Positions 3,366-51,291 of a stretch of 51,709 nucleotides of DNA are shown one piece after another. The notes under the pieces are model-generated. The model had not been told where the DNA came from. It worked only from the letters and a program-made list of their open reading frames with translations, and ran no database searches. Position 1 is the first letter of the stretch; the number at the start of each line of letters is the position of its first letter. The stretch is from Phlyctochytrium arcticum (Eukaryota; Chytridiomycota; Chytridiomycetes; Chytridiales; Chytridiaceae). The translations under genes were made by a program, and so were the position numbers. The DNA lies in NCBI GenBank assembly GCA_025602905.1, contig JAHLKI010000061.1, positions 1 through 51,709 on the forward strand. The letters run 5' to 3'.

Positions 3366-4475
3366 AGAGACAAATGTAAACCAAACACAGAGGAAGTCTG
3401 CAAAAAAATGGCAGAGGTCCCATATACAGAATGCCCCTGGTCATACTCACCACTAATTCCATTGAGCGCTCCTCTAAAACCATGGCTATGTGCAAACCCC
3501 CCTCCCATCTTGGGTTGGCTTCGCAAATCAAGGCTGTGTGCAACACCCGCCCAGTCGACGCCATCCCACCATTGATGCTCGTTCCCTCCATCACTCGCAA
3601 ACGGCCATGCCAAGATGCCATCTGTTTTCCCATGCTCAGGCCATGCCAAGACGTAATCTGGCTTTGGGACTCGGCCTACGGCCTGAAGAATTTGCCCAGA
3701 GATTTCAACTCAAGGCCCTCCATCACTCACCAATTGCCATGCCAAGATGCAATGTGTTTTCTCACGCGCTTATATGTAGCAAACTTGGCATTGGGACTCG
3801 GCCTATGGCCTCAACGCAAGGGGTGGACGGGTGTCCGAACAGGTCACTTGGGGCACGTGTTCTTTTTTGGACATTGCTATTTTACTATATAGACGAGGAT
3901 ATGCCAGTTATGGGGCTAAGCCCAATACAGAGACGAATGTAAACCAAACACAGAGGAAGTCTGCAAAAAAATGGCAGAGGTTCCATATACAGAATGCCCC
4001 TGGTCATTCTCACTGCCTATTCCATTGAGCGCTCCTCTAAAACCATGGCTGCCAATCCCCCTCCCATCTTGGGTTGGCTTTGGAAATCAAGGCTGTGTGC
4101 AATACCCGCCCAGGCAACGCCATCCCATCATGAATACTTGTTCCCTCCATCACTCCCAAACGGCCATGCCAAGATGCCATCTTTTCTCCCTCGCTCAGGC
4201 CATGCCAAGATTGAATATGGCATTGAGAGTCGGCCTATGGCCTCGAGAATTTGCCCAGAGATTTCAACTCAAGGCCCTCCATCACTTACCAACTGCTGCA
4301 ATGTGTTTCCCCACGCTCATGATTAGCAAACTGGGCTTTGGGACTCGGCCTACGGCCTCGAGGATTTGCCCAAATATACCAAGTCGCGGGACTTGCGGCG
4401 GGAGCAACAGTGTCCGAACAGATCACGTGAGACACGTCATCTTTTTCGGACATTGCTATTATACTATATAGATTA
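3366..4475. repeat. direct tandem repeat, period about 563 bp, two copies
   Basis: The unit starting AGAGACAAATGTAAACC at 3366 recurs at 3929 as AGAGACGAATGTAAACC and is followed by nearly identical sequence for over 500 bp. Each unit ends in a segment with GGACATTGCTATT and ACTATATAGA (near 3890 and 4470). Inside each unit a shorter motif (CCATGCCAAGATGC) recurs two or three times near phrases such as CTTTGGGACTCGGCCTA. The open frames here are fragments in several phases. It is probably a duplicated noncoding transposon end; the TATA-like terminal motif could be promoter-like but nothing confirms this. Confidence 0.8.
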
Positions 4476-4584
4476 CCAGTCTGTCAGCACCTCAGAAAGA
4501 TACTTTACGGTTACGCCTGCAGGAATTTGACAGCACTTCATTCTATCGCTTTCTAGTTGTCAGGACAGTGAGCATACAGGAACT

Positions 4585-6020
4585 TTGAACGGCAAAGATT
4601 TCAAACATTTTGCCCAGATTGCACTATTTGTTCTTTTTGACTTGGTATTGGAAGATGTCTTCTCTTTGTGGGTTGCGACTGGCTACCTGGTTCGCGCCGT
4701 TTTCGCGAGAAGGCTGCAAGCCCAAAATGCGGTTCGGGAATTGCAACAAGTCATTGATGACTTTCTGTTCACCGTTCTTGGCTCAAACGCCCGATGGTTG
4801 AATAAAGCCAAATTTCACCTTTTGGTCCATATACCAAGATGTGTAGAACCATTTGAACCAGCAGTAACCCAGGGTACAGAAATGTGGGTTGTGCCACGCG
4901 TGCACCGCATGATTGATTGAAGTCTCATGTATCCCTTAGATTCGACAGCAACAACCATGTCATTAGAGACACCTCCGCTCTCACCAATCGGTTGGCCCCA
5001 TCACTTAATATTGCTAACGCGTTGGCCTTGTGGTATGTACACCGCCATGTGGCCGCTGGCGGTTGGTGGTGGGATGGAAGCAATGGGTACGGGGCGGAAA
5101 GGACCTTATTCAGTATGCTTCAATGCAGTCAATTCGCAACATTTTGGAACAAACTGATCAAGATGAGGAATCTGAACAGCTAGCAGCCGGCCAAGTGACC
5201 TGCCCATTCCGTAGCAAGCGACAAGACCACAAATTTGATTGGCATTTAAGCGAGTGCGAGACTGCTAAGGCCAACGGGTGGCTCCGGCAGCCAGTAGCAT
5301 CGTTGTATCAAGATGGAGGGCAGTTGGGACGCAATATGGAGAGCGCTGCAATGTCAGCAAGTTTGCACTTCTTGAGACTGGGGTGAGCTTCTCGAATATG
5401 CCTTTTTGATATATCAGACCTGACATCCTGACCTTAGGAGTTCTTCAGAATCACTGAAATAGTGACCCACCAGGGCAGCACACTTCAGAATCACTGAATA
5501 GTGACCCCAGGCAGCACATCTTCCCCAGAAGTATCTGGCCAAATCTTCGTTGTCACACGATGAAAAACCACTCCCCCGTTATTCAACTTGCAAATCCGCA
5601 AAGCAACTGTCTGGAGAGACTTGCGACCCCCAATCTTCTCGTTGGACCGGTTAACGTACAGCAACTATCCACCGCAGCCTGCACTGTAAACATGACCAGC
5701 GGCGGCCCCAGAAGACGCGTGGAACGAGAACGGCAACAAGGACCATCCTTGACAATCAGTCATCGTGAGCATGATGAGACATTCGCGGTCAACTTGTTCT
5801 GTTTGAGAACTTCATGGCTGGATTCAGTATACCCCTTGCCCGAATGCTTCCCGATGTGCCCGACTCTGTCAACGAGCGGCGAGTCTTACTTAATTCATCT
5901 TTGGAAAGATTTGAGGAGACCTGCTGGCAAGAGCAACGGCCACAACAGCAAGAAGAACAGCCAGAGCAGCCGAGGTCGGCCCCAACTCGCAACCAGATAG
6001 CATCTGGCACGCATCACTAG
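4585..6020 (+). pseudogene. 3' end of a fungal transposon-type gene (family unnamed)
   Basis: The frame from 4585 contains AKFHLLVHIPRCVEPFEP and then, after a shift near 4915, ESHVSLRFDSNNHVIRD, LTNRLAPSLNIANALA and AAGGWWWDG. This resembles a C-terminal module common in transposon-linked proteins of basidiomycetes (KFH-LLHLP, then an E--N--R block, then NR-APS, then GG-W-D). A later part (5560-6020) has cysteine- and arginine-rich text (AACTVNMTSGGPRRRVERE), then HDETFAVNLF and a Gln-rich tail (RPQQQEEQPEQ) ending near 6020. The frames change at about 4915, 5180 and 5810, so it is broken. The catalytic part is not present upstream, where the 563-bp repeats lie. I know the family only by pattern and give it no name. 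Confidence 0.45.
5445..5517. repeat. short tandem repeat, ~38-bp unit, two copies
   Basis: CTTCAGAATCACTGAAATAG with GTGACCC and GGCAGCACA is followed at once by a second slightly shorter copy beginning CTTCAGAATCACTGAATAG. It lies between the two coding blocks of the preceding broken gene and may be intron or duplicated sequence. Confidence 0.75.
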
Positions 6021-6245
6021 TCAGCATTATGTTTTGTATTGCCAGTATATCAATGAGAAAACATGTTTGGCGCTCTAAGGACATCTCGGAACATTCTTGA
6101 CCCAAAATGATATGGCAATAAGGTGTGAAAAGATGAGGTGTATTTGGAGTATAAAAGCTGGACACTGTTTGGTATTTCCCTGTCTTCCCAGTCCCTTTTT
6201 CAATCTTCTGCCATTTCCTTCTTTTACTCAAACTTTTTAGCCCCA

Positions 6246-7481
6246 ATGTTGTCTCTTCAATCACCATTTACCACACCCACCCGTGGAAGCACCAGCAACG
6301 ACAGAAACTCTCAAATGGATGATGTTCGCCACCGCGCCACGTTCCTAGCAGACGGTTTGGATGGGGGAGACGGCCGTCCAGGTGGTCCCTCATCCCCACC
6401 ACCAGGAAGCAGCGAGCCCAACCCAGGACAAATCCTCCATCCGTCGGTAGTCAGTTGCATGCGACTCGCAGTTGAAAAGTTGTCGGAGGGAGACAACAAT
6501 TTGAGGAACTTTTTACTTGACTACTGCGAGGTATGTGTTCGTGCTTCTTTACATTGTATTTTTTGCCTTTTTCTAACTTGTCAAATTTCATACAAATGTT
6601 CCTATAGGTTCCCCCTGCCGTCCAAGCAATTGTGGTCATGGCAAAGTTGGAGAAGCTGGAGAAGAAATTGGATGCCTTCATGGACCTGCATCTCGACAAT
6701 TACTATCTCAGAGGATCTTTTAAAGGCATCTGATCTCCGCTGCCAATGCCCGAGTCAACAACCCCTGCTGCAACTCGTACCAGCTAAAGGATTCTCTCGA
6801 CGTCATCATCAAGAGCTTGAAGGACGATGGCGCCATTCACGGCGGCCCAGGCCAGGTCCACCATGTTTGTTGACACAGTTGCCCCGAAGATCGGCAGGGC
6901 ATATTCAACAGCCAAAGGCAATATGATGAAGCGGGTGGATGGCAAATTCGCAAGTGCTGCCTTGGACAAATTTGCTGATTCTATGTTCAATGTGCGTGGG
7001 ACCAGGATTGAGGATGCCTATTGGCACAGGGCCGGGCTGATCCGACACTATTGGGGGAAAAATGGATCTAGGCCCAGGCTGAGAGAAATTTGAAGCCGTT
7101 TGTCCAAGACGTTGGATCCGGCAGGTACGCCCAACAGCGAGGCTGGTGAAGATGACGGCGAGGACGGCCACACGTTTTTGAAAATTCTTGACCTACTCGG
7201 TACAACAGCTGGATCAGTCGGCAGATGGGGGCCGGAGTGAGTGCAGATTGGTTTTGGAAGTGGATCGACGAACATTTGGCAGGGGTTCCACTGGGGGTTC
7301 CAACGAAATCGGACGAGCAACCCCTAGCAATGGTTTCACCGAATCAGGGGGTCAAGGCAAGGATGGAGCAGACAAGCCTGCAGCTGGGGGTGCAGGCGCA
7401 ACCTGGGTGAAGAGGAGGACACCCGCGGTTTGCATGTTTACGGCTACAACCCGGACTTGGGCTACTAGTACTAGGTAGATT
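6246..7481 (+). pseudogene. unrecognised gene with acidic/proline-rich start and coiled coil
   Basis: Starts at ATG 6246 (MLSLQSPFTTPTRGS), with a Gly/Pro/Ser-rich stretch (GGRPGGPSSPPPGSS), then ILHPSVVSCMRLAVEKLSEG. An intron at 6531-6607 (donor GTATGTGTTC, acceptor TTCCTATAG) joins DYCE to VPPAVQAIVVMAKLEKLEK, a likely coiled coil. After a frame break near 6735 the coding sense continues as AANARVNNPCCNSYQLKDS, SLDVIIKSLKDDGAIHGG, then GTRIEDAYWHRAGLIRHYWG (to 7090) and, in another frame, an acidic tail (EAGEDDGEDGHTFLKILD) and ADWFWKWIDEHLAG. I do not recognise the protein. Spliced frame continuity over the intron argues for a former gene; at least three indels argue that this copy is dead. 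It could be an accessory gene of a transposon. Confidence 0.4.
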
Positions 7482-8177: not shown

Positions 8178-9462
8178 ATGTCCCAACTACGCGCAGCTAA
8201 TGCGATTAAAGCACAGAATTCATCAATTTGGTACCGTCGACAGAGATTGTTCAATGCTGTCTCGTCGTTCCAAGTCCCTCTCAATGAGTTCGATACTGAA
8301 TGGAAGTTGGGTGATAACTTTCGGACGCAGCTCCACGTGTCTATAGCAAAACGATCCGGCATCAACAAAATCACATACAAATGCAAGTTCGGTAAGCACT
8401 GCAAGTCCAAAGGAAAGCGCAGCGACGACGAGGGGGAGCCTGAGAAAAAAAGGCGCGTCACAGCATTGATGAACGCACCGGGCAAGTCACAATACCGCAC
8501 AAGCCTGGATATGCGGAACATGGCAAAGGGCATGCTATTCATGTCGCCGATGATAGAAGCTATGCTCCCATGCCTCTGATTATGTCAAGGCAGAGGCCAG
8601 CTCTCCATATGCTCATGCAGACATTGCACACGCATTGCCGGAAATCATGGGTCGTGCGTCGTCCCCTTCTCGAATCAGTGCGCTTGGTTTAGACCGTATT
8701 TCTGCGCGTGTCGTCTACAATGCTGACAAGTGATGTGAGCCAGGCTATCCAATTGCTTTGAGAGGAAGGCTACATCGTTGTGAGACTTCTCAGCGGTAGT
8801 GGAGAACAAGCAGACGAGGGCTTTACGTTTGCCGTGGAACCAGGTCTGCGCTTGCTCTCGACCAATAGCTACCTTGTCCTCCTTGATTCGACCCGCAAGA
8901 CCAATCGTTTCGATTGGAGGCTTTTCACCTGTATGGTGCGGGATAACTTTGGTAGCTGGCTGCCCGCCGCACAATTTTTCGTGCGTACGGAGAATGCCGA
9001 CGCAGTTGCGAAAGGACTGCTGGAGCTGAGGAAGATGGTGCGAGAAGTGTGCAGTGTTGAATGGCAACCTAGAAACATGCAAATTGATCAATCCAATATT
9101 GAAAACAACGGAATCAGGCATGCTTTCCTTGGAATGGCTGCAGGCGAGGAGGAGATCAAGATTTGTTTTTGCAAGGTAAACCGTAATGCAGAATCCTGAC
9201 TCTCAAAATTTGTTGACTTGAGCAACCGCTAGGTCCATGTCGTACGCACGTTAATGCGACGAGTCGCGAGTCATCACAATGCATTTGCCAAAGTGCTGAT
9301 CGCGCTCAACAAAACAACATATGTGGGAGCCACAGCAGCCGTAGAAGAAGCAATGCAGGGGGCTCCCGCATTTATTGCTAATTACATCCAACGAAATTGG
9401 ACAAATCGCGAGGAAATGGAGTGTTGGACGATGGCCGCCCCGCAACATTCCCCGATCCTTCT
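8178..9462 (+). pseudogene. SWIM-finger MULE-like transposase, 5' part (split by transposon copy 1)
   Basis: The N-terminal block has a basic/Cys region (KITYKCKFGKHCKSKGK) followed by PGKSQYRTSLDMRNMAKG, as in the DNA-binding N-terminus of fungal MULE/SWIM proteins. After frame breaks near 8540 and 8735 the catalytic part reads YLVLLDSTRKTNRFDWRLF (first Asp), VRDNFGSWLPAAQFFV, and WQPRNMQIDQSNIENNGI (second Asp region), then HAFLGMAAGEEEIK. A 57-bp intron (9176-9232; GTAAAC to CGCTAG) joins FCK to VHVVRTLMRRV. The frame then runs WTNREEMECWTMAA-QHSPILL up to the 8-bp target duplication at 9455-9462, where the foreign element starts. The protein resumes exactly at 13031. Confidence 0.75.
9455..9462. 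repeat. target site duplication, left (ATCCTTCT)
   Basis: Perfect 8-bp direct repeat of 13023-13030, immediately outside the terminal inverted repeat. In the host frame it encodes part of PILL, and removing one copy plus the element restores the SWIM transposase reading frame. Confidence 0.93.
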
Positions 9463-9475
9463 CTCAGCGCAACCC
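9463..9475 (+). repeat. terminal inverted repeat of copy 1, gene-3' side
   Basis: CTCAGCGCAACCC. Together with the next ~40 bp inward it matches the right end of copy 2 (51237-51291), including the phrases GTCGGACATT and AAAATCT next to the TIR when read in gene orientation. Confidence 0.92.
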
Positions 9476-9873
9476 AAGATTTTGGCGCCAAAAATTTACA
9501 TAAGCAATGTCCGACAGCCCGAACCATTTCCGCGAGAATGAAGGGATACCTGAAGGTGACCCAATTTCACCCAAACTTGATATAAAATAACGAAACCGAG
9601 TAAACGAGAATGAAGGAAACATATCTAAGAGCTAAGGAAAACATGGCCGCTACCTCAGACTATATAAAGGATAGAGTTTGACCCGAAAACCAACAGTCTA
9701 AGCGCATCTAAGAATTTGATGGGGTACGTGAAATGCGTAAGCATGGTGAGATACACGAGCTACTGAGTTGATGTTGAAACTGATGATTCTAAATAGTGTT
9801 TGAAAGAAGGTTGTTAATCGCTCATAGCCGGGAAAAGGACGCAACTCGCGAGACACTGAGCGGTACCTCTGGC

Positions 9874-12767
9874 TTAATTACCTTCATCATCACGCACAAG
9901 TTCCTTGTCAATGTGTTTTGAAAAATGCTTCAGGGACTTGGTTGCAATCCACTGGTACATTGCTGTACATTGGCAGTTGAAGATCACGCAACCGCAAGCG
10001 GTCAGATCTTGCTTCAGCGAGTCTGATTTTAAGAAATCTCGCACTGTGACTTTTTTGGCCTTACTGGGAGATGGCCCATTCGTAATGTCAGCAAGAGGGG
10101 TCTTTGCGACCGGCATTGGAACACTTTGAAACCCTTCAACATCGATGTGGTTGCCGAGATTTACGAAGGGTTGACGGCGCAGCGGCAAAGGCAGAAGTGA
10201 CTCCCGGATGGTAGCTAAGACTACCACGGGATCTTTTCTGCGCTGGCTGGAGGGAGGTTTACCGTAGTGTTCTCCTTTGTTGGTTGTAGCTGACCCGGAA
10301 GAGAGTACAGGGTTGGTGACGGGTGGGGCTGGAGCTGGAGGGCGGAGAATCAGGTTGTAATGCGGCAGAGCAGGACGCATATGGAATCTATCATGTTGTC
10401 CAACGACGTCAAAAGTGAACTGAGAAAGGGTGGAGAACAGGTCCTTGAGATACGCAACCATCCTCGGGACGACATCATCGGCTGCCTTTTCTAGCGGGGA
10501 TAGGGCGGGAGTACGGGCCGGACCAGAGGTACCTGGCTCGACTTTGATTGGCGAAACTGGTTGTCCACGTAGCGCCAACTCCCTTTCTGTCATAGCCGCA
10601 AGCTGCTTGATGGCAGACTCACCCCTCATGGCGGTTATCAACATTGCCTTTCTTGAGACCTGCGCATTAGTATCTTGAAAGCGGATGGCGGCCCGGAGGA
10701 TGGAGTGAAATACTTCAAATCCTCACTTGAGAAAGTGGAGAAAAGGAAAGCCATTGCAACATCTTTTGGTAGGTGGGAGGGAAGCTTTTCTAAGAGACCA
10801 AGCTGGTAGAGGACAATGTTCACGTAGTTTTTCTTTCCCAAAAGAGTGAACAACGGGAACAGCCGCTTGAGGCACATCTTGATCTGTTCGAGATCCCCAC
10901 TACACAGTAAATACGGACAATCCACCGCAAGAGGAATGTGATCTTCGAAAAGCGAGATGATCGAATCCACCATCGCCTTGCGGACAGGTGTTGCCTTTAT
11001 ATTGCTGGATGCCGCCGCCTTGTAGGAACGCAAGACTTCCTTACGGCACTCTTGCCAAGCGGTCATAGAGAGGGCCAACATTGCCGTCCTGCGCTTTGGC
11101 CGCATGTTGATGGGAGCTGTGTTTTCCACGTCCGGATACCCGGCAACCCACAGCCGGTGTATGATTGTCCAACCATGGACAAGGACTGCCTCCTGTATGT
11201 TCAGGGCTATATGCATATTGTCCGGGACCGGTAGGACGTGAGGCCTGAGATTACTATACTTGGCTGATCGCAGCAATTTGCTAGCGTACAGTACATCCAA
11301 ACATAGTAATCGCCGGCCAAAACCACAGACTTACTAAATGAACCGTCTTTGTCAGGATAGTTGACTTTCGCCAAGAATGTCTCGATATTGTCCATCACTG
11401 GTTCCAAATCGAGAGCGGACTTCATAGGCTTGTTGTCGCTGCCGATAATGTGGAAATCCTCTTGCGATCCGGCCTTGGTAGCCATACTGTAGGCGTACAT
11501 TTTTTTGGACAAAACTTCACCGTTACGTAGTTCCGCATACGTCTGCGTTGCGGGAGCACACAGGACTGAGGGAATCCATGTTGTGTCCTGCAACACAGAA
11601 GCTAGAACATCGGTGATTGCAGGAGGAAGAGGTGGCAGTTCCTGTGAAGCTTTACCGCATAGTGGCGGTGGTCCTCGCACTCGGTAAACTTCCGGGTGCG
11701 TTTGCGGCATCTGGTACAGGGCGGACTTGACACCAATGGAAGTCATCAATGGTGACGACCAAGAGTGGGTCATTCTCCAAAATATCTTCACAAACGCGCT
11801 CGTGGGCCGTCATGATCATGTTGTTCATCCGCGTAATCGATTTTGACGGATGATAGCCCAGATTCACCCGTGAAAGAAGCCGTTGGTCTGTGTGGGATCC
11901 CGTGATGAAGACAGATCCGATATATCGTTTGACGTAATCAGTCTTCCGGTCCATACACTGTCCCTCATAGCATATGGCAAAGATCAAGTGCCGCTTCATT
12001 CGATCGTTGTAGAGAACAGAATACCGGCTTTCGTCATGTCTGACCATGAGTGACTTGAGCTCATATAGGCGGGGATACTGAGCGACAAATTCGTCCATCT
12101 CGACGAACGGATTTCCTCCGAACGGATGAGCAATGAAGTTGCGCATTTCTTGGTGAAAATCAGCAAGAGTCGCAGGAGATGGTCCTGATGTTTCAGAAAT
12201 ATCAACATCATCGCCTTCAGGTTCCGGAAGCTCGAAGTCCGTCATCAAGATGACACTGCCATTCGCAACCGCATCGACAACGTTGTCGTCACTGACTTGA
12301 GCGTTCACTGCTGCATCCACCACATTGTCGGTACTGATGCTGGCTTCCTGAATGGCCGCAACCTCATTGGGTTGAGCAGGGATGATGGGCCTGACGGCGG
12401 GCTGTCGAATGATCCCTGCTTTGTACCAGCGGGTTCGACACGCATTGCAAGCATACGGATCAGCAGCTCCTGGTCCAACCTGGGGCCTCAAACGTGCCGC
12501 CCGACGGCTGTCAAGTTCAGCCCAAATGAACTTGTGAAATCGGGTTGAGCTCTTGGTCCCGCAGCCGATGCATCCAGGGTTATAGCCATATTTGTTACCC
12601 CTCTTACCGGGTACCTGATCGTACCAGCTAAGTCCGTCTGAGACCTGGCGCTATAATGGTTGTAATAAGAAGAAGTAAAAGAATGAGTGAACTGACTCCT
12701 ACAGCCGGATAAAGGCTTGTTTTCGAGATCATGAAGATGCCCATCTCACCTTTCTTTTGGGCGGCAT
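9874..12767 (-). pseudogene. transposase-like gene of the 13-bp-TIR element, copy 1
   Basis: Starts at ATG 12767 with an 18-nt first exon (MPPKRK), a 99-bp intron (12749-12651; GTGAGATGGG to ATTATAG) and then RQVSDGLSWYDQVPGK. Order of conserved blocks: zinc-finger-like CIGCGTKSSTRFHKF plus YACNACRTRWYK; an acidic linker; DRMKRHLIFAICYE; VVTIDDFHWCQ (about 11.74 kb); ELRNGEVLSKKMYAYSMATK; VVLAGDYYVWMY; LPVPDNMHIALNIQEAVL; DCPYLLCSGDLEQIKMC; GKKNYVNIVLYQLG; and a C-terminal CGCVIFNCQC cluster ending at 9874. The conserved acidic residues (TIDD, AGD, SGD) suggest an RNase H-like transposase, which is inference. Compared with copy 2 it has two 1-bp deletions near 11.66 kb, a 5-bp duplication near 11.3 kb and a 1-bp deletion near 10.72 kb, so as read it is not translatable. 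Full length would be about 930 residues. Confidence 0.85.
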
Positions 12768-13009
12768 CCTGTCACTTGCGCGTCGTAATTCTAAAGATCC
12801 TGTGAGAGAGGTTCAGATAAAGTCACACAGCCTCCTTCTAATACCGGCTGAGGTGAGGTTTGAAAGTTTACTGGAGGTGTATAGTTGAAAAGATCGCGTG
12901 GAAATGGACAGATGGTGAACAAATGTTTTGCAATAACGTACAGTAAAACGGCGAGGTTGGATCTGCTTACTTAATGCCACAATGACTGTGCCTCCCTATA
13001 GTAAAAGTC

Positions 13010-13022
13010 GGGTTGCGCTGAG
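13010..13022 (+). repeat. terminal inverted repeat of copy 1, gene-5' side
   Basis: GGGTTGCGCTGAG, the exact inverse of 9463-9475. It is 243 bp upstream of the gene's ATG. Confidence 0.92.
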
Positions 13023-13030
13023 ATCCTTCT
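13023..13030. repeat. target site duplication, right (ATCCTTCT)
   Basis: Perfect copy of 9455-9462. Confidence 0.93.
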
Positions 13031-13803: not shown

Positions 13804-15190
13804 CTAGTATTGATGACGGTATCCATAACACGAGTCGCTATTTTCTTTGGCAGACTCCATAGCTACCGGGACGATCCGTTTCCGCTTTGCAGGTAACTTT
13901 CCTCGCTCAAATGTTCGGGCTGCTTGATCGAGCATCTGGCAAAGGACTCCTTCACGCAAGGGGAACCAACCGAACCAATTCGGGTGGCTGCGCACAATCC
14001 TGGACAAACGTGGATCCAACCAAATTTTCCAGTGCCCAATACGCACCCCATATTCGGATTTGTTGTCAAAGTACTTTGACAGTTCGATTGAATGTTCAGT
14101 AGGATATGCCACCGACAAAGCAGTCGTTTTGTCTGGGGCCAAACACCTTTGAGGGCACCAATGAGTGCTTTTGCCCAAGACTGGCGTTAACAGACGGAGA
14201 AACCACACGTAGTCGGCACATTTGTCTTGTTCAACAATGCCAAAGGCGATGGAAAAGGTGTGATTTGCTGCGCTGACGCCAACCGCCTGCATCATTGGCA
14301 TTTTGTACCTATTTGTTTGGTAGGTTGCGTCAATGATGACGACGTCAGCAAGACCAAAACAAACGACAAACGGTGCAATCTTCATTCAGCGTGAAATCAG
14401 GTACCAAATGTTTTTGTCTGATCTTTTGCAACAGTGCCTCCATCATGGTCATGGTCCCCAATTCGTTCCTCTGCATTTGGGGGATAATATTGGTGACATC
14501 TCGAGCGACAATGAGTTTTGGCCTGTCTGGATTGTTGTCGGAGAGCGATTGCACAATTTCTCCAGGGCTTTGGGCGTCCGCCAAGATGAGGCCATCCGCA
14601 AGGTTCTGAGTGGCTAGTCTCGCAGTGGGCAAGCTGGCGAGTTCGGTAGTGGTTCTCCTTGGGTGATTGATATGATGGTCATTCTTGTCCCCGTACTTTT
14701 GAATTTTCCATACTTCCCCAACCAACCCTAACCGCAATCTATAGGTGCACCCGACCTTCTTGCTCTCCATCTTTCTCATCGACGACGGCGCCTGCGCTGG
14801 GGGCGACCCACGCTGGCAACACTGAAAGACTACCTGATGAAAAAATTTTGGAGTGCCCCAGCTATTTTCTTTCTGTTCAGAAACGGCAAAACCCTGGCCA
14901 AGCACGTACTGCTTGACGCCGTCAATACCTTTCTGCATGGTGGCAAATTCCACATCCGCCCATCTTCAGGAGCCAATGGACCGTGGCAGGAGGCGGCTTG
15001 CGCTATGATAGCATTTTGCCATGGTGCATCAGTTGAAGTATCAGGAGGTCTGCTTGGGAGGTGGATGACTTGACCGACAGTGGACATCTCGGATTATTGT
15101 GTTTTGGTGTGGGGCAGGTTCTTTGCTTCAGAAGAATGGGGTGAACCTGAGTGGCAATTGGACAGCCGGAGCGGAGTTTTGTTTGCCAAA
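13804..15190 (-). pseudogene. truncated MULE transposase (MULE 1)
   Basis: Minus strand. The N-terminal MuDR/FAR1-like part (FATMQKGIDGVKQYVLGQGF, SKKVGCTYRLRLGLVG, HHINHPRR) is followed by VVIIDATYQTNRYKMPMM (first catalytic Asp), AANHTFSIAFGIVEQDKCADY and, after a frame shift, RLLCRWHILLNIQSNC (the C-x-WHI motif of MULEs). Similarity to MULE 2 ends just after the next phrase KYFDNKSEYG, exactly where the 55-bp segment shared with 7888-7942 begins. The final acidic residue and the SWIM finger are missing, so it is a dead 5' fragment. The exact start is uncertain (about 15190). Confidence 0.7.
13998..14052 (-). repeat. inverted copy of the 7888-7942 segment
   Basis: On the minus strand begins GGGGTGCGTATTGGGC and runs to GGATCC. 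It marks the breakpoint of MULE 1, so an element terminus or a rearrangement junction lies here. Confidence 0.7.
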
Positions 15191-45000: not shown

Positions 45001-46234
45001 AATGTCAACGTTTCCGAACCACATCACCCGGTGTGGGGTTGCTCCGCTCATTACCTGTGCCTGACAAGCGTTGGCATACGATCGGTATGGACTTTGTGTC
45101 TTTGCCTCGTACGGAATCGTGGGGGGGAAGAATAGCCATAATGGCGATTATTACGATGCCGCACTCGTCATAGTGGATTACCTCTCCACTCGTGTGTATC
45201 TGATTCCATGTAACATGGAGATGGGGAGCCAAGAGATTGCATATCTCTTCACTTCGCACTTCTTCAAGAATGAAGGTGCACCGGAAGTGATTGTCAGCGA
45301 CAGAGACAGCCGCTTTTTATCCGAGTTTTGGGAGGCCTTTACGGTCGGCTTGGGCAATAAGCGGGAAGTCGCGACGGCTCGTCATCAACAGACTGATGGC
45401 AAGTGCGAGCGCAAGATCAAGTCTGTGAAAAGCATTTTGAGGGCTTTCATAGACCTTGACGGTAAGAATTGGGTGGACATCTTGCCGATGCTTGAGTTCC
45501 ATCACAATTTGACTCCGTCAAGCACGGGCTTCGCTCCGTTCATGATAGACAAGGGGCGTCTACCGCTGGTATTCGGGGAATTTACCACGCGGAAAGGTCT
45601 TCAACAGATCGCAACACCTACTGCGCAACAAGTTGCAAAGTTCGTTGATGCTCTGAGAGACACTGAACGGGTCGTGCAGCAGCGCCTACGTGATGCACAA
45701 GATGTGCAGGCGCGAAACCATGACCGCGGGCGTCGGACTCTGAAATTTGACAAGGGCGATCTCGTCTTGCTCAAACGTAAGGGGATCCACATCCCGGCCT
45801 TGGGAAAGCTGCCCGAGAAGCTTCGTCAGGATTGGATTGGTCCATTCAGTGTGGAGGACTTTGGACCTCATCCTGAAACATACTGGTTGAAGTTGCCACA
45901 TACTATGCGTATGGTTCATCCGACGTTTCATGTCAATATCTTGAAGACATGGGAGCCCCCGAACTCCGTAGCCTACAGGGCTTCAGTGGAAGCGCCTGAT
46001 CCTGTCCTTGTGAATGGAGAGGAACTTTGGCTAGTTGACCGCATCCTTGACGAGAAAGTCCGTCACAGGAAGCGGATGTACTTGGTACAATGGGAAGGGT
46101 TCGGACCTGAGGACGCGACTTGGGAGCCGCGAAAACACCTCGAGGGCACAGAAGCACTGGGCGCATGGGAAGTAGCAAATCCCCCAGTGGCAGACCGTAA
46201 CCCTCCGCTTTCGGCAAAGCGCAAAAAGGGCTGA
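42040..46234 (+). pseudogene. gypsy pol with chromodomain integrase
   Basis: Protease with [14 protein letters not shown] (42350) and DVILGLPFI. Reverse transcriptase from about 43020: [27 protein letters not shown], a one-base loss near 43378, LLDIKDAYHCVRI, MPFGLTNAPATFQRIM and YLDDILVFS (catalytic Asp pair). RNase H: YMFTDASGFAIGGWL and, after a small deletion at about 44225, SHEQELLALVKML. Integrase: H-H-C-C finger HDSLLMGGHTGKHSTY...CPQCQ, core WHTIGMDFVSLP, a frame change at a G run near 45120, VSDRDSRFLSEF and QQTDGKCERKIKS (DDE), then HNLTPSSTGFAPF. A chromodomain closes it (WLVDRILDEKVRHRKRMYL, WEGFGPEDATWEP), stop at 46234. Three frame breaks. Confidence 0.92.
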
Positions 46235-47050: not shown

Positions 47051-47337
47051 TGTGACGGGTTCTGGTTCTTTTATACTAGCGGCAGGCGGCCGAATGACAT
47101 GTGTCATTGGTCCCTGAGAGCGGTAGCAATCATTACTGCGCGAGCTGGCATGCGCCACACTCGTGACAGGTTTTCTTCCATCATAAAGTACTCTGATAGC
47201 ATTAGACATAACTTTAAGTGTTTTTCGACCATTACACTACCCGAACTCTCGCAACCTGGGAAGTTGCATATAGCGTCCATTTTAGTTTTCTTTGAGCCCC
47301 TTTCTTTCATCAGACCGATCCCCCTGACCCCATTGCA
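47051..47337 (+). repeat. 3' LTR (287 bp)
   Basis: Nearly identical to the 5' LTR; ends at 47337, followed by the duplication TGATT. Confidence 0.96.
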
Positions 47338-48572
47338 TGATTCTCCCCAAGTTTACAGACAGCACTTTCATAGCGTTATTATCTGTACCGGGAGTGCGAA
47401 GCATTTCTGGTTGAATAATCGACAATTTCTTGCGATGGACGGAACGTTCACAAAGAACCGTTTCATTCAGACCTTACTGCTTGCCTGCACCATGGATAGC
47501 GAGAATAAGTTGGTTGTCTTGGCTTGGGCGCTGGTTCCAAATGAATGTGAGGAGACGTGGAAGTGGTTCCTTGAGCATTTGTCCGCTGCATTGCCAACTT
47601 TGAATTGTGGTCAGACAACTAACATCAACGACGCCCTTGACATTCAAGTACCCGAAGCATACCCCGCTTGGTGCTGCTACCACATCGCGGCGAACGTCCA
47701 GAAGAACTAGGGCCTGAAGCTCAAACGCTTACTTTGGCGATGTGTATATGCTGGTAGGTTCACCTTGACCTTGAAATTGTGTTTATATGAAGCAACGTCC
47801 CGTGTAAAATGCATCGCTTTAGGCACGGAAGCAAAGTTTCTGGAAATTTTGGCAGAAATTCGCACAGCAAATACTTTGGCCGCTGATTATATTAACGACA
47901 TCCCCCACGAGCCTTGGGCTGCCTATGCAGTCACTGGCAGGCGATTCGGGCACGTCACCTCAAATTTGGCCGAGATTGCCAATGCCCTTTTGCGTGAAAT
48001 CCGGACGCTTCCTGCATTAGAAATGGTTCACGCCATTTACCTGCACCAAATGGGCAAATTTTATGATCGCGCCCAGGCATCCTTGGGGTGGCAGGGCCAG
48101 CTGACACCTTCGATTGAGGAAACGTTGCGAAGAAACGTGTTAGCCGCTCGGTCTTTTGTCCCACGACCAGCAACCAATACAGATGGAGTCGTGGTTTGCA
48201 GTAGGACGGCCAAGCAGTTCACGGTTTACCTTCCGACAGAGGAGAATGGTGAGGGGCGTTGCTCCTGCAGAGATTTTCAATTGTTGTGGGTACCATGCGA
48301 GCACGCTTGTGCGTTCGGTAATGCGGTCAGGAAGCCTCCCATCTCACTCGTCGCGACCATTTATTCTACCGATATGTACAAAGCGGCGTATGGACACCCG
48401 TATATCCCGGTTACTTTGGAAAATCTAGCGGCCTCGTGGACGCCCCAAGACCCGTCGCGTGGAGAGTGGCATGCAAGGTTCGTCCCAAGCAGCTACTCAG
48501 AACAACCAAGGGTGCCGCACCTGCGGGGAGCCGGGCCACAACCACCGTACCTGTCGTGAGGGTCACAGGTAA
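47338..48572 (+). pseudogene. MULE 3 transposase, 3' part
   Basis: Resumes as SPQVYRQHFHSVIICTGSAK, WLNNRQFLAMDGTFTKNRF (Asp 1), LVVLAWALVPNECEETWKWF, then YPAWCCYHIAANVQKN followed by an in-frame TAG (about 47708) and GLKLKRLLWRC. A 39-bp intron with donor GTAGGTTC (near 47754) fits. Then AAYAVTGRRFGHVTSNLAEI (candidate Glu region), a SWIM finger RCSCRDFQLLWVPCEHACAF (48250-48310) and, after a one-base shift near 48490, the zinc knuckle CRTCGEPGHNHRTC, stop at 48572. The normal second-Asp phrase is not clear (TTNINDALDIQ is a candidate). Confidence 0.82.
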
Positions 48573-48795: not shown

Positions 48796-50901
48796 TCCAT
48801 CTGCTATGAAGCCCATACCATGGATAGGAGGTGCGACTATATCAAGCAAGTCGTTGGAGGCAGATCATCGGTCAGTCATATACCCTGCAGTGATACTTTT
48901 CGAGAGTAGGGATCTGCTACAATCCATCAAAGTCGGTTGCCCGTTCAAACGATCTAATCCTGGAGTCGCAAGAAGCCGTGGTGAAGGACATTCTCCAAAC
49001 AAACCCCCTTCTTGTAGTCACGATTGACGATTTTCACTGGTGTCAGATTCGCGCCATACCGAGCACGGCTAATGCGCCAGGAAAGTTTACGAGCTCAAGA
49101 ACAACTGCCAACTATACAGTGAAGCTTCATCGAGACCTCAAACCCCTTCCCCCTGGTATTAGAAAGTTGAATGCCTCTCTCCTGCAGGACGTGTCGTGGA
49201 TCCCCCAGGTCATCGAAGGCCCCGGAAGCGAAAGCTATGCCAAGTTGCGCAATGGCGAAGTTCTCTCCAAGAAAATGTATGCTTATAGCATGGCAACAAA
49301 GGCGGCATCTTAAGAAGACTTCCATATTATCGGGAGCGATAATAATCCCATGAAGTCAGCTGATGACCTTGCCCGTCATGGACAACATAGAGGCTTTTCT
49401 GTCCGAAGTAGGCTATCCTGGCGAGGATATTGCACACAAACAGTCCTTTGTGCTGGCCGGGGATTTTTACGTATGGATGTACGTCAACAAGCTGCTCAGG
49501 TCCCCCAAGTACCAGGCTTTACAACCACATGTACTGGCAGTTCCCGACTTGATGCATGTATCACTCAACTCTCAGGAGGCCGTCCTCATACATGCTTGGA
49601 CGCTGATTCATCCCCTCTGGATTGCTGGGTACCCGGAAATTGAGAACACCACGCCAATCAAGATGTGACCTACATCAAATGCAGAACAGCTATGCTGGCC
49701 CTTGCCATGACCGCATGGCAAGAATGTCAAGAGGAAATTCTAAAAACCTACCCAATCATCCTGACGCTACATCCGTCCGCAAGGCTATGATCGATGCCGT
49801 CATGTGGGTTTTTGAGGAGGCTATTCCTCTTTCCGTGGACTGCCCATACTTGTTAGCCAGCGGTGATCTTGGTCAGATCAAGATGTGTGCAGCGCCTCTT
49901 CCCATTGTTCACCTGTCTGGAGAAGAAGAATTATGTGAACATTATCCTATTGCAGCTCGCCCTTTGGAGAAATTGCCGGCTCACCTCCCACAGGATGTCC
50001 TCGTCTCTGTCCTATTCTCCACGTTTTCCAGCGAAGACCAAGAGGTCTTTCATTCCATCCTTCGCGCTGCTATCCGCTTTTATGATACCAACAATCAAGT
50101 GACCCGGAAAGCGTTCCTTATCACAGCTATGAGGGGGGAATCTGCCCTCAAGCAGCTGGCACAGATGACTGAACGCGAATTCCAGCTTCGCCGACTTCCG
50201 ATCCCGACGGATGATGACAATGATGAAGAAGATGATGATGAGAAGTCCGGTGCACCGCTTCCCTTGGAGAAGGCGATGGACGATGTTGTTCCAGAATGGT
50301 TGTTCATCTGAAAAATCTTTTTTCTACCCTTCTATCCTTCTGTTTGACCTAAAAGGAAAACTGGAAAGTTGTTTGTGTTGGTCCAATTTGCCCCACTAGA
50401 ACCTTGTGGTAAGGCCTCCCTCTCCACCCAGCCCAAATTTCCTCTTCCATCCCCATCAAGTCCTCCAGTTCAATCCCCTCCTTCTTCATTGTTACCAACA
50501 CCAGGGTCCAGTCCAGCAAGAAATGCAAACAACAAAAATCCGACGAGATCATTGTTTACCATTCGAGAAAGCTTGGGCTTGGTTGCAATCCCTCTGAAGC
50601 GTCAGACATATGTTAATCTTGGAAAGCACGTCAATATTGTCGATTATCAATCTGTGCCAAAGCCATCGTCTAAATCCCCTCATGGCGACATCACCAATGG
50701 GCCAGCGAAGCCATCAGCCAAAGCCCAGAAGACGCGGGATTTCTTGAACACGAATTCGTGACAGGAGGTCGTGCAGGCTGCGGATGCCTAACAGACAATT
50801 GCAAGTGCCCCAGCATGTTTCAGTGGATTGCCAAGCAATTGCGGACCAACTTTTGGAAGAACATTGACAAGGTTCCAGCACGTGTTGTTGAAGGTGCGTA
50901 A
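48796..50901 (+). pseudogene. transposase-like gene of copy 2, 3' part
   Basis: Continues the gene after the MULE: SICYEAHTMDRRCDYIKQVV, a stop near 48905, then VVTIDDFHWCQIRAIPS, ANYTVKLHRDLKPLPPG, ESYAKLRNGEVLSKKMYAYS, a TAA at 49311, EDFHIIGSDNNPMKSAD, VLAGDFYVWMYVNKLLRS, LAVPDLMHVSLNSQEAVL, IHPLWIAGYPEIEN, DCPYLLASGDLGQIKM and EKKNYVNI. The Asp/Glu-rich linker (DDDNDEEDDDEK) is more acidic than in copy 1. A shift near 50760 leads to the C-terminal cluster CGCLTDNCKC and QWIAKQLRTNFWKNIDK, stop at 50901. Motif order is identical to copy 1. At least two nonsense codons and three shifts make it dead. Confidence 0.85.
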
Positions 50902-51278
50902 AGACAGGGTACTCGCCTGCCCCTCAGGCGCTGGTTGCGCCGCTACACCATGAACAATACTCACTTTCTTACATACAATGTCTAGATTGAGATATCTCAG
51001 CCTCACATCGATGCGTTCTGCGTTTGACGTTTGGGGTCCATTTCCATACCCCATGACAATCTCACGCTGTCGGTTTTTAGGGTCTAGTTTGCACCTATAC
51101 ACAGTTTGGCATGGTGAACATCCCCCCACTTATATTTAGCATATGTTTGATCATTTCATTCACTTCGTAGCACTCTTTTACATTAGAATTTACATCAGTA
51201 TACAGTAGCACCTATCAGTTGTTGGGAAATTGTTTGGAGTCGGACATTATTTACGTACATTTTTGACGGGAAAATCTC
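50902..51278 (+). other. noncoding 3' region of transposon copy 2
   Basis: About 380 bp between the stop and the right TIR, comparable to the ~400 bp of copy 1. No gene. CTCAGGCGCTGGTTGCGCC near 50925 resembles the TIR core and could be a degenerate internal repeat. Confidence 0.7.
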
Positions 51279-51291
51279 GGGTTGCACTGAG
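51279..51291 (+). repeat. right terminal inverted repeat of copy 2
   Basis: GGGTTGCACTGAG: one change from copy 1 (GGGTTGCGCTGAG). The next eight bases GGGCCGGG would be the target duplication, but the left partner was not found. Confidence 0.85.

Follow-up and report, generated by a model that had tools for sequence, protein, structure and literature searches.

Among the described DNA transposons, the closest to the element reported here appear to be those of the P superfamily (Drosophila P, THAP9, zebrafish Pdre2), whose transposases, according to PMC8230255, are marked by a triad of D230, D303 and E531 located on β1, β4 and α4, a [C/D](2)H motif that always directly follows β5, and an insertion domain comprising residues 339-528. 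The comparisons with this and other known transposon classes draw on that paper and on PMC12730594, PMC12810828, PMC7776569 and PMC3985635. The window, a 51,709-nucleotide stretch of the chytrid Phlyctochytrium arcticum (contig JAHLKI010000061.1; C61 in the 31.48 Mb assembly used for the genome searches), carries at 9463-13022 a real, recently mobile DNA transposon. With considerable confidence, it can be regarded as a cut-and-paste element that is P element/hAT-like by fold and catalytic signature and falls in a clade of its own, to which the Pfam family DUF6589 (PF20231) most likely belongs.

The borders of the element are exact, as the first-pass annotation of this DNA had stated. Both 13-bp terminal inverted repeats (TIRs), CTCAGCGCAACCC, are perfect and are bordered on each side by the 8-bp target-site duplication (TSD) ATCCTTCT, whereas at the empty site, in a second copy of the host locus (L059, C3:624565; 94% identical over 802 columns), the sequence crosses the junction with a single ATCCTTCT. 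Besides the window element, the fetched copies include 11 near-full-length ones with 97.9-99.6% identity. One copy, at C3:1318074 (L031), has the same TSD and a flank 100% identical to that in the window, and the two therefore represent one insertion event copied together with its surroundings. Judging from its sequence, the interrupted host looks like a MULE-type gene, with an open reading frame just upstream of the element that matches PF10551 (E 1.2e-5; 26.1 bits, just missing the cut-off of 27.6) and a weak match to a SWIM finger just downstream (E 0.07).

Table 1 Features of the transposon and of its degraded relative in the window (NLS, nuclear localisation signal).
Feature	Position	Strand	Remarks
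Transposon, 3560 bp	9463..13022	coding strand minus	TIRs and TSD, empty site, near-full-length copies; sits in a MULE-like gene
Left TSD ATCCTTCT	9455..9462		present once at the empty site
Right TSD ATCCTTCT	13023..13030		
TIR CTCAGCGCAACCC	9463..9475	+	
TIR CTCAGCGCAACCC	13010..13022	-	
Transposase main exon	9874..12650	-	frameshifted here; relatives have it intact (P0001, L040, 924 aa)
Predicted intron, GTGAGA...ATTATAG	12651..12749	-	inferred
Predicted first exon, MPPKRK (basic, NLS-like)	12750..12767	-	P0006 and P0009, public models for relatives, start MPPKRK; splicing inferred
Degraded relative	48978..51291	+	right TIR CTCAGTGCAACCC at 51279-51291 (-); public gene model P0018

Further copies, for which the first-pass annotation had suggested a search, are present in the genome. 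The end motif CTCAGYGCAACCC has 114 exact matches (56 forward and 58 reverse) compared with two (1+1) for the reversed control pattern, which places the count beyond chance. From the 100 of these 114 motif places that were listed, 30 plus/minus pairs were taken (L021-L050). Lone ends were left aside, and of the copies on unlisted contigs only that in the window and L081, which had been found by another route, were kept; the window copy and four others, drawn from two further subgroups, bring the copies examined to 35. The 8-bp TSD is perfect in 29 of these and carries one mismatch in three, while no 8-mer matches between the two flanks of L045, L047 or L050; in L047, which spans 6297 bp, the wrong ends have probably been paired. 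For L034, which allows three motif pairings, the one with a matching TSD was counted (3613-7134), and two further fetched loci, L051 and L052, gave no usable end pair. Segmental duplication as a general source of the repeats was rejected since the TSDs differ among the copies (28 distinct), the window/C3:1318074 pair excepted. When pooled with their reverse complements, the TSDs display a weak nnGnnCnn preference, with G occupying position 3 in 27/56 and position 6 mirroring this.

Two further arrangements of the copies were observed. A 2248-bp copy with an internal deletion and a perfect TSD TGCTGTGG (L035, G000:C6:761139-763386) is likely a non-autonomous derivative, and at G000:C10:622718-622764 a left-end motif follows a right-end motif after 21 bp, probably as a result of two elements having inserted side by side. 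No short derivatives were found in a search limited to a spacing of 150-180 bp between the motifs. Likewise, no inverted repeats were found inside each end region taken alone, a search that did not extend to repeats common to both ends, and the folding of the ends is ordinary (z 0.42 and 0.61).

The intact copies contain one open frame of approximately 890-930 residues in one long exon, while in the window copy the frame is split by frameshifts into four overlapping pieces, and a genome tblastn search places its main-exon pieces at C61:11658-12650 and 10704-11291. The one long zinc-cluster protein of the first-pass annotation is thus found in the intact relatives but not in the window copy itself; the motif blocks it listed are all present in the element, namely the CxxC..CxxC finger, TIDDFHWCQ, AGDYYVWMY, VPDNMH, SGDLEQIK, KKNYVNI and the CGC..CxC cluster, the finger being N-terminal and the cluster C-terminal. 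The frameshifts, the single long exon and the P-element-like fold described below are additions to that annotation. Some of the near-identical copies carry a stop. Among five subfamily copies, the ratio of nonsynonymous to synonymous substitution rates (dN/dS) is 0.09-0.14 in the 6/10 pairs for which it could be computed, values that are rough because dS, at 1.6-2.6, is near saturation. Pfam scans of the single pieces of the window copy returned nothing informative, the one Zn_ribbon_Dof match (E 0.09) being under the cut-off.

Protein searches for relatives, each limited in scoring to the roughly 8,000 candidates with the most words in common, returned P. arcticum proteins and only two metagenome proteins, and the family therefore looks narrow at this sensitivity. 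The two metagenome proteins, P0013 (36% identical to P0001) and P0034 (41% identity with P0016, across 27% of the latter), show that relatives exist outside the P. arcticum assembly; of 40 stretches in IMG/VR that fit a peptide pattern, none was confirmed as a relative. Within the genome, L081 and L082 are about 70% identical to P0001 and have the TSDs ACACATGG and AGCATCAG. A second group shares 24-28% identity with P0001 across the alignment and is likewise mobile, being represented by the 4031-bp copies L079 and L080 with the TIR CCCAGCGCACGGGTCCCATTT and the TSDs GTTGCGTG and CGTGACAA. A third, P0028-like copy at C17:179611-183594, which is single and stands outside the 35, has the TIR CCCAGGGCGGACCTCCCAG matching at 18/19 positions and a perfect TSD AGATGCCG. 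Its ends were missed by a seed-7 exact scan and recovered by a mismatch-tolerant one, where a second match with 4 mismatches in 12 was rejected as chance. Ends of the form C[TC]CAG and 8-bp TSDs are common to all groups examined.

The conserved residues of the transposase follow the arrangement of the P signature. In an alignment of 24 family proteins (A3), from which several near-duplicates and short sequences were left out (P0003, P0004, P0007, P0008, P0010, P0018-P0020 and P0033 among others), D302 (P0001 numbering) is kept in all 18 rows that have a letter there and D303 in 16 of the 18. Next, D448 is retained in 21/22 rows, D476 in 19/22 and H479 in 23/24, and finally E642 and E645 are each invariant in 21 rows. 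By the definition in PMC8230255, the chytrid transposase thus has the D, D, [C/D](2)H after β5 and E of the P superfamily. In the structure comparison the P element was the best fold match, with Hermes less than 2 Z units behind; the first model (full protein, 8 sequences) was poor, with a predicted local distance difference test (pLDDT) of 54.6, and the fold matches from it serve as a hint only. A sequence search of the PDB gave only non-significant matches (E 2 and 1.3), and the SEDLEVFHSxLR block presumably resembles the C-terminal block of P (QDxxExxF). In predicted shape and key residues, the chytrid transposase looks like that of the Drosophila P element.

Such likeness, together with the 8-bp TSD, might suggest that the elements are simply very divergent members of the P superfamily (P/THAP9/Galileo), which is a possible, if less favoured, assignment. 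For P0001 and P0002, Pfam gives no match at E<=10 to THAP or to TNP-like models, PF21787 and PF21789 have one weak genome match each, neither among the places listed for the chytrid family, and Hermes follows closely in the fold comparison. The chytrid proteins also differ from P in having a GATA-like finger of the C2C2 type and, at the C-terminus, a cysteine cluster, and the elements in their C[TC]CAG ends. The hAT elements, to which Hermes belongs, have a TSD preference of nTnnnnAn and the C(2)H form of the motif. In the chytrid family the motif is instead D(2)H and the TSD preference is not seen, T occupying position 2 in 13/56 pooled TSDs. The hAT dimerisation domain PF05699, with 18 genome matches of which 16 are over the cut-off, does not occur among the places listed for the family and is absent from the family proteins scanned, so that a divergent hAT element seems quite improbable.

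The KDZ group (Kyakuja/Dileera/Zisupton) shares with the chytrid elements fungal occurrence, 8-bp TSDs and cysteine-rich zinc domains, which in KDZ can take the form of a zinc-chelating CxC domain (PMC12730594, PMC12810828). Membership in it is nevertheless very unlikely, as the KDZ profile PF18758 matches neither the chytrid proteins nor the genome, although the control was silent as well, and the chytrid element and its TIRs are far shorter than those of C. neoformans KDZ1-3, KDZ1 being about 11 kb long with 241-bp TIRs. Overall, the P fold and signature, the lack of a THAP match, the lack of hAT dimerisation matches and, with its control silent, that of KDZ matches argue for a P-like clade of its own, and the elements are assigned to none of P, hAT, KDZ and DUF6589, the sequence tests for these having failed or been inconclusive. 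The first-pass view of a DNA transposon that could not be placed is borne out by a mobile element with exactly the ends and duplication described and no match to the Pfam profiles of those superfamilies. In the open-licence literature, as judged by title and start of abstract, no transposon description for P. arcticum was found; one behind a paywall or only in Repbase may exist.

DUF6589 is the only Pfam family that the chytrid transposases match recurrently, albeit under its curated cut-off. In a genome search at E<=10, PF20231 gave 18 matches, the best at E 1.6e-4 and 23.7 bits, with none (0/18) reaching the gathering score of 27 bits; all 18 are inside genes of two distant subgroups and none in that of the window element. 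At E<=1, 11/24 of the family members scanned match the profile (best 5e-5), compared with 2/24 for the next family, and the highest score in a protein is 22.6 bits. The matches cover a single stretch, about 234-325 of the 410 profile positions. It is conceivable, but unlikely, that within an otherwise correctly described transposon this similarity arises from one helical stretch matching by chance: the scores remain sub-cut-off over about 45-95 profile positions, the window's own subgroup is silent except for the core of P0001 (10.7 bits, E 0.21; the full protein has no match), and the 14 control genomes, being silent for PF20231, do not calibrate the match. Chance would, however, have to account for the same model being hit in all 18 genome matches and in 11 of the 24 members, and for the P0028 and L053-L055 loci, which lengthen the match to profile position 233-234.

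By their sequences, the PF20231 matches are thus consistent with remote homology rather than membership, which is not proven because the Pfam cut-off is never reached. Of the link to DUF6589 proposed in the first-pass annotation, the relation through distant relatives stands, whereas membership does not. No paper in the open-licence library searched names DUF6589, and PF20231 returned unrelated titles there. The elements are best described as DDE cut-and-paste transposons of the P/hAT-like kind that form a new clade with a probable relation to DUF6589. Beyond that, we are inclined to think that DUF6589 and the chytrid group together constitute an undescribed DDE transposon superfamily, a sister of P and hAT characterised by C[TC]CAG ends, an 8-bp TSD, a GATA-like finger and a P-type insertion domain, and that many of the DUF6589 proteins left unnamed in fungi are transposases or domesticated descendants of these.

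By fold and signature, the chytrid transposase would function like those of the P element/hAT class. The finger and the N-terminal helices would bind the element ends, D302 (or D303), D448 and E645 would, as fold and conservation suggest, cut at the C[TC]CAG termini, and the two ends would join the target DNA 8 bp apart, which would give rise to the 8-bp duplications that are observed. Such a model would provide DUF6589, a family without known function, with a testable job as a transposase and broaden the P/hAT/RAG group of insertion-domain transposases. It would also add a fungal P-element-like clade whose intact, near-identical copies are open to assay, while the end motifs and TSD length would allow such elements to be annotated elsewhere instead of being included in host-gene counts.

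A second element end in the window, CTCAGTGCAACCC, adjoins the degraded copy of Table 1, which runs from around 48.9 kb and for which no left end was found. Further MULE-type transposase genes are located at 47099-48559 (+) and 13804-14953 (-) of the window (MULE 5.8e-14, SWIM 5.4e-5, MULE 1.8e-15), and the window as a whole is a transposon nest. Among additional loci (L061-L068 and others), eight are about 67% identical to the host-gene flank (window 9063-9462), and since their scores are identical, a second MULE-like family looks to have been recently amplified. An open reading frame at 45071-46234 (+), judged by eye, resembles an integrase of the Ty3 type carrying a chromodomain at its C-terminus.
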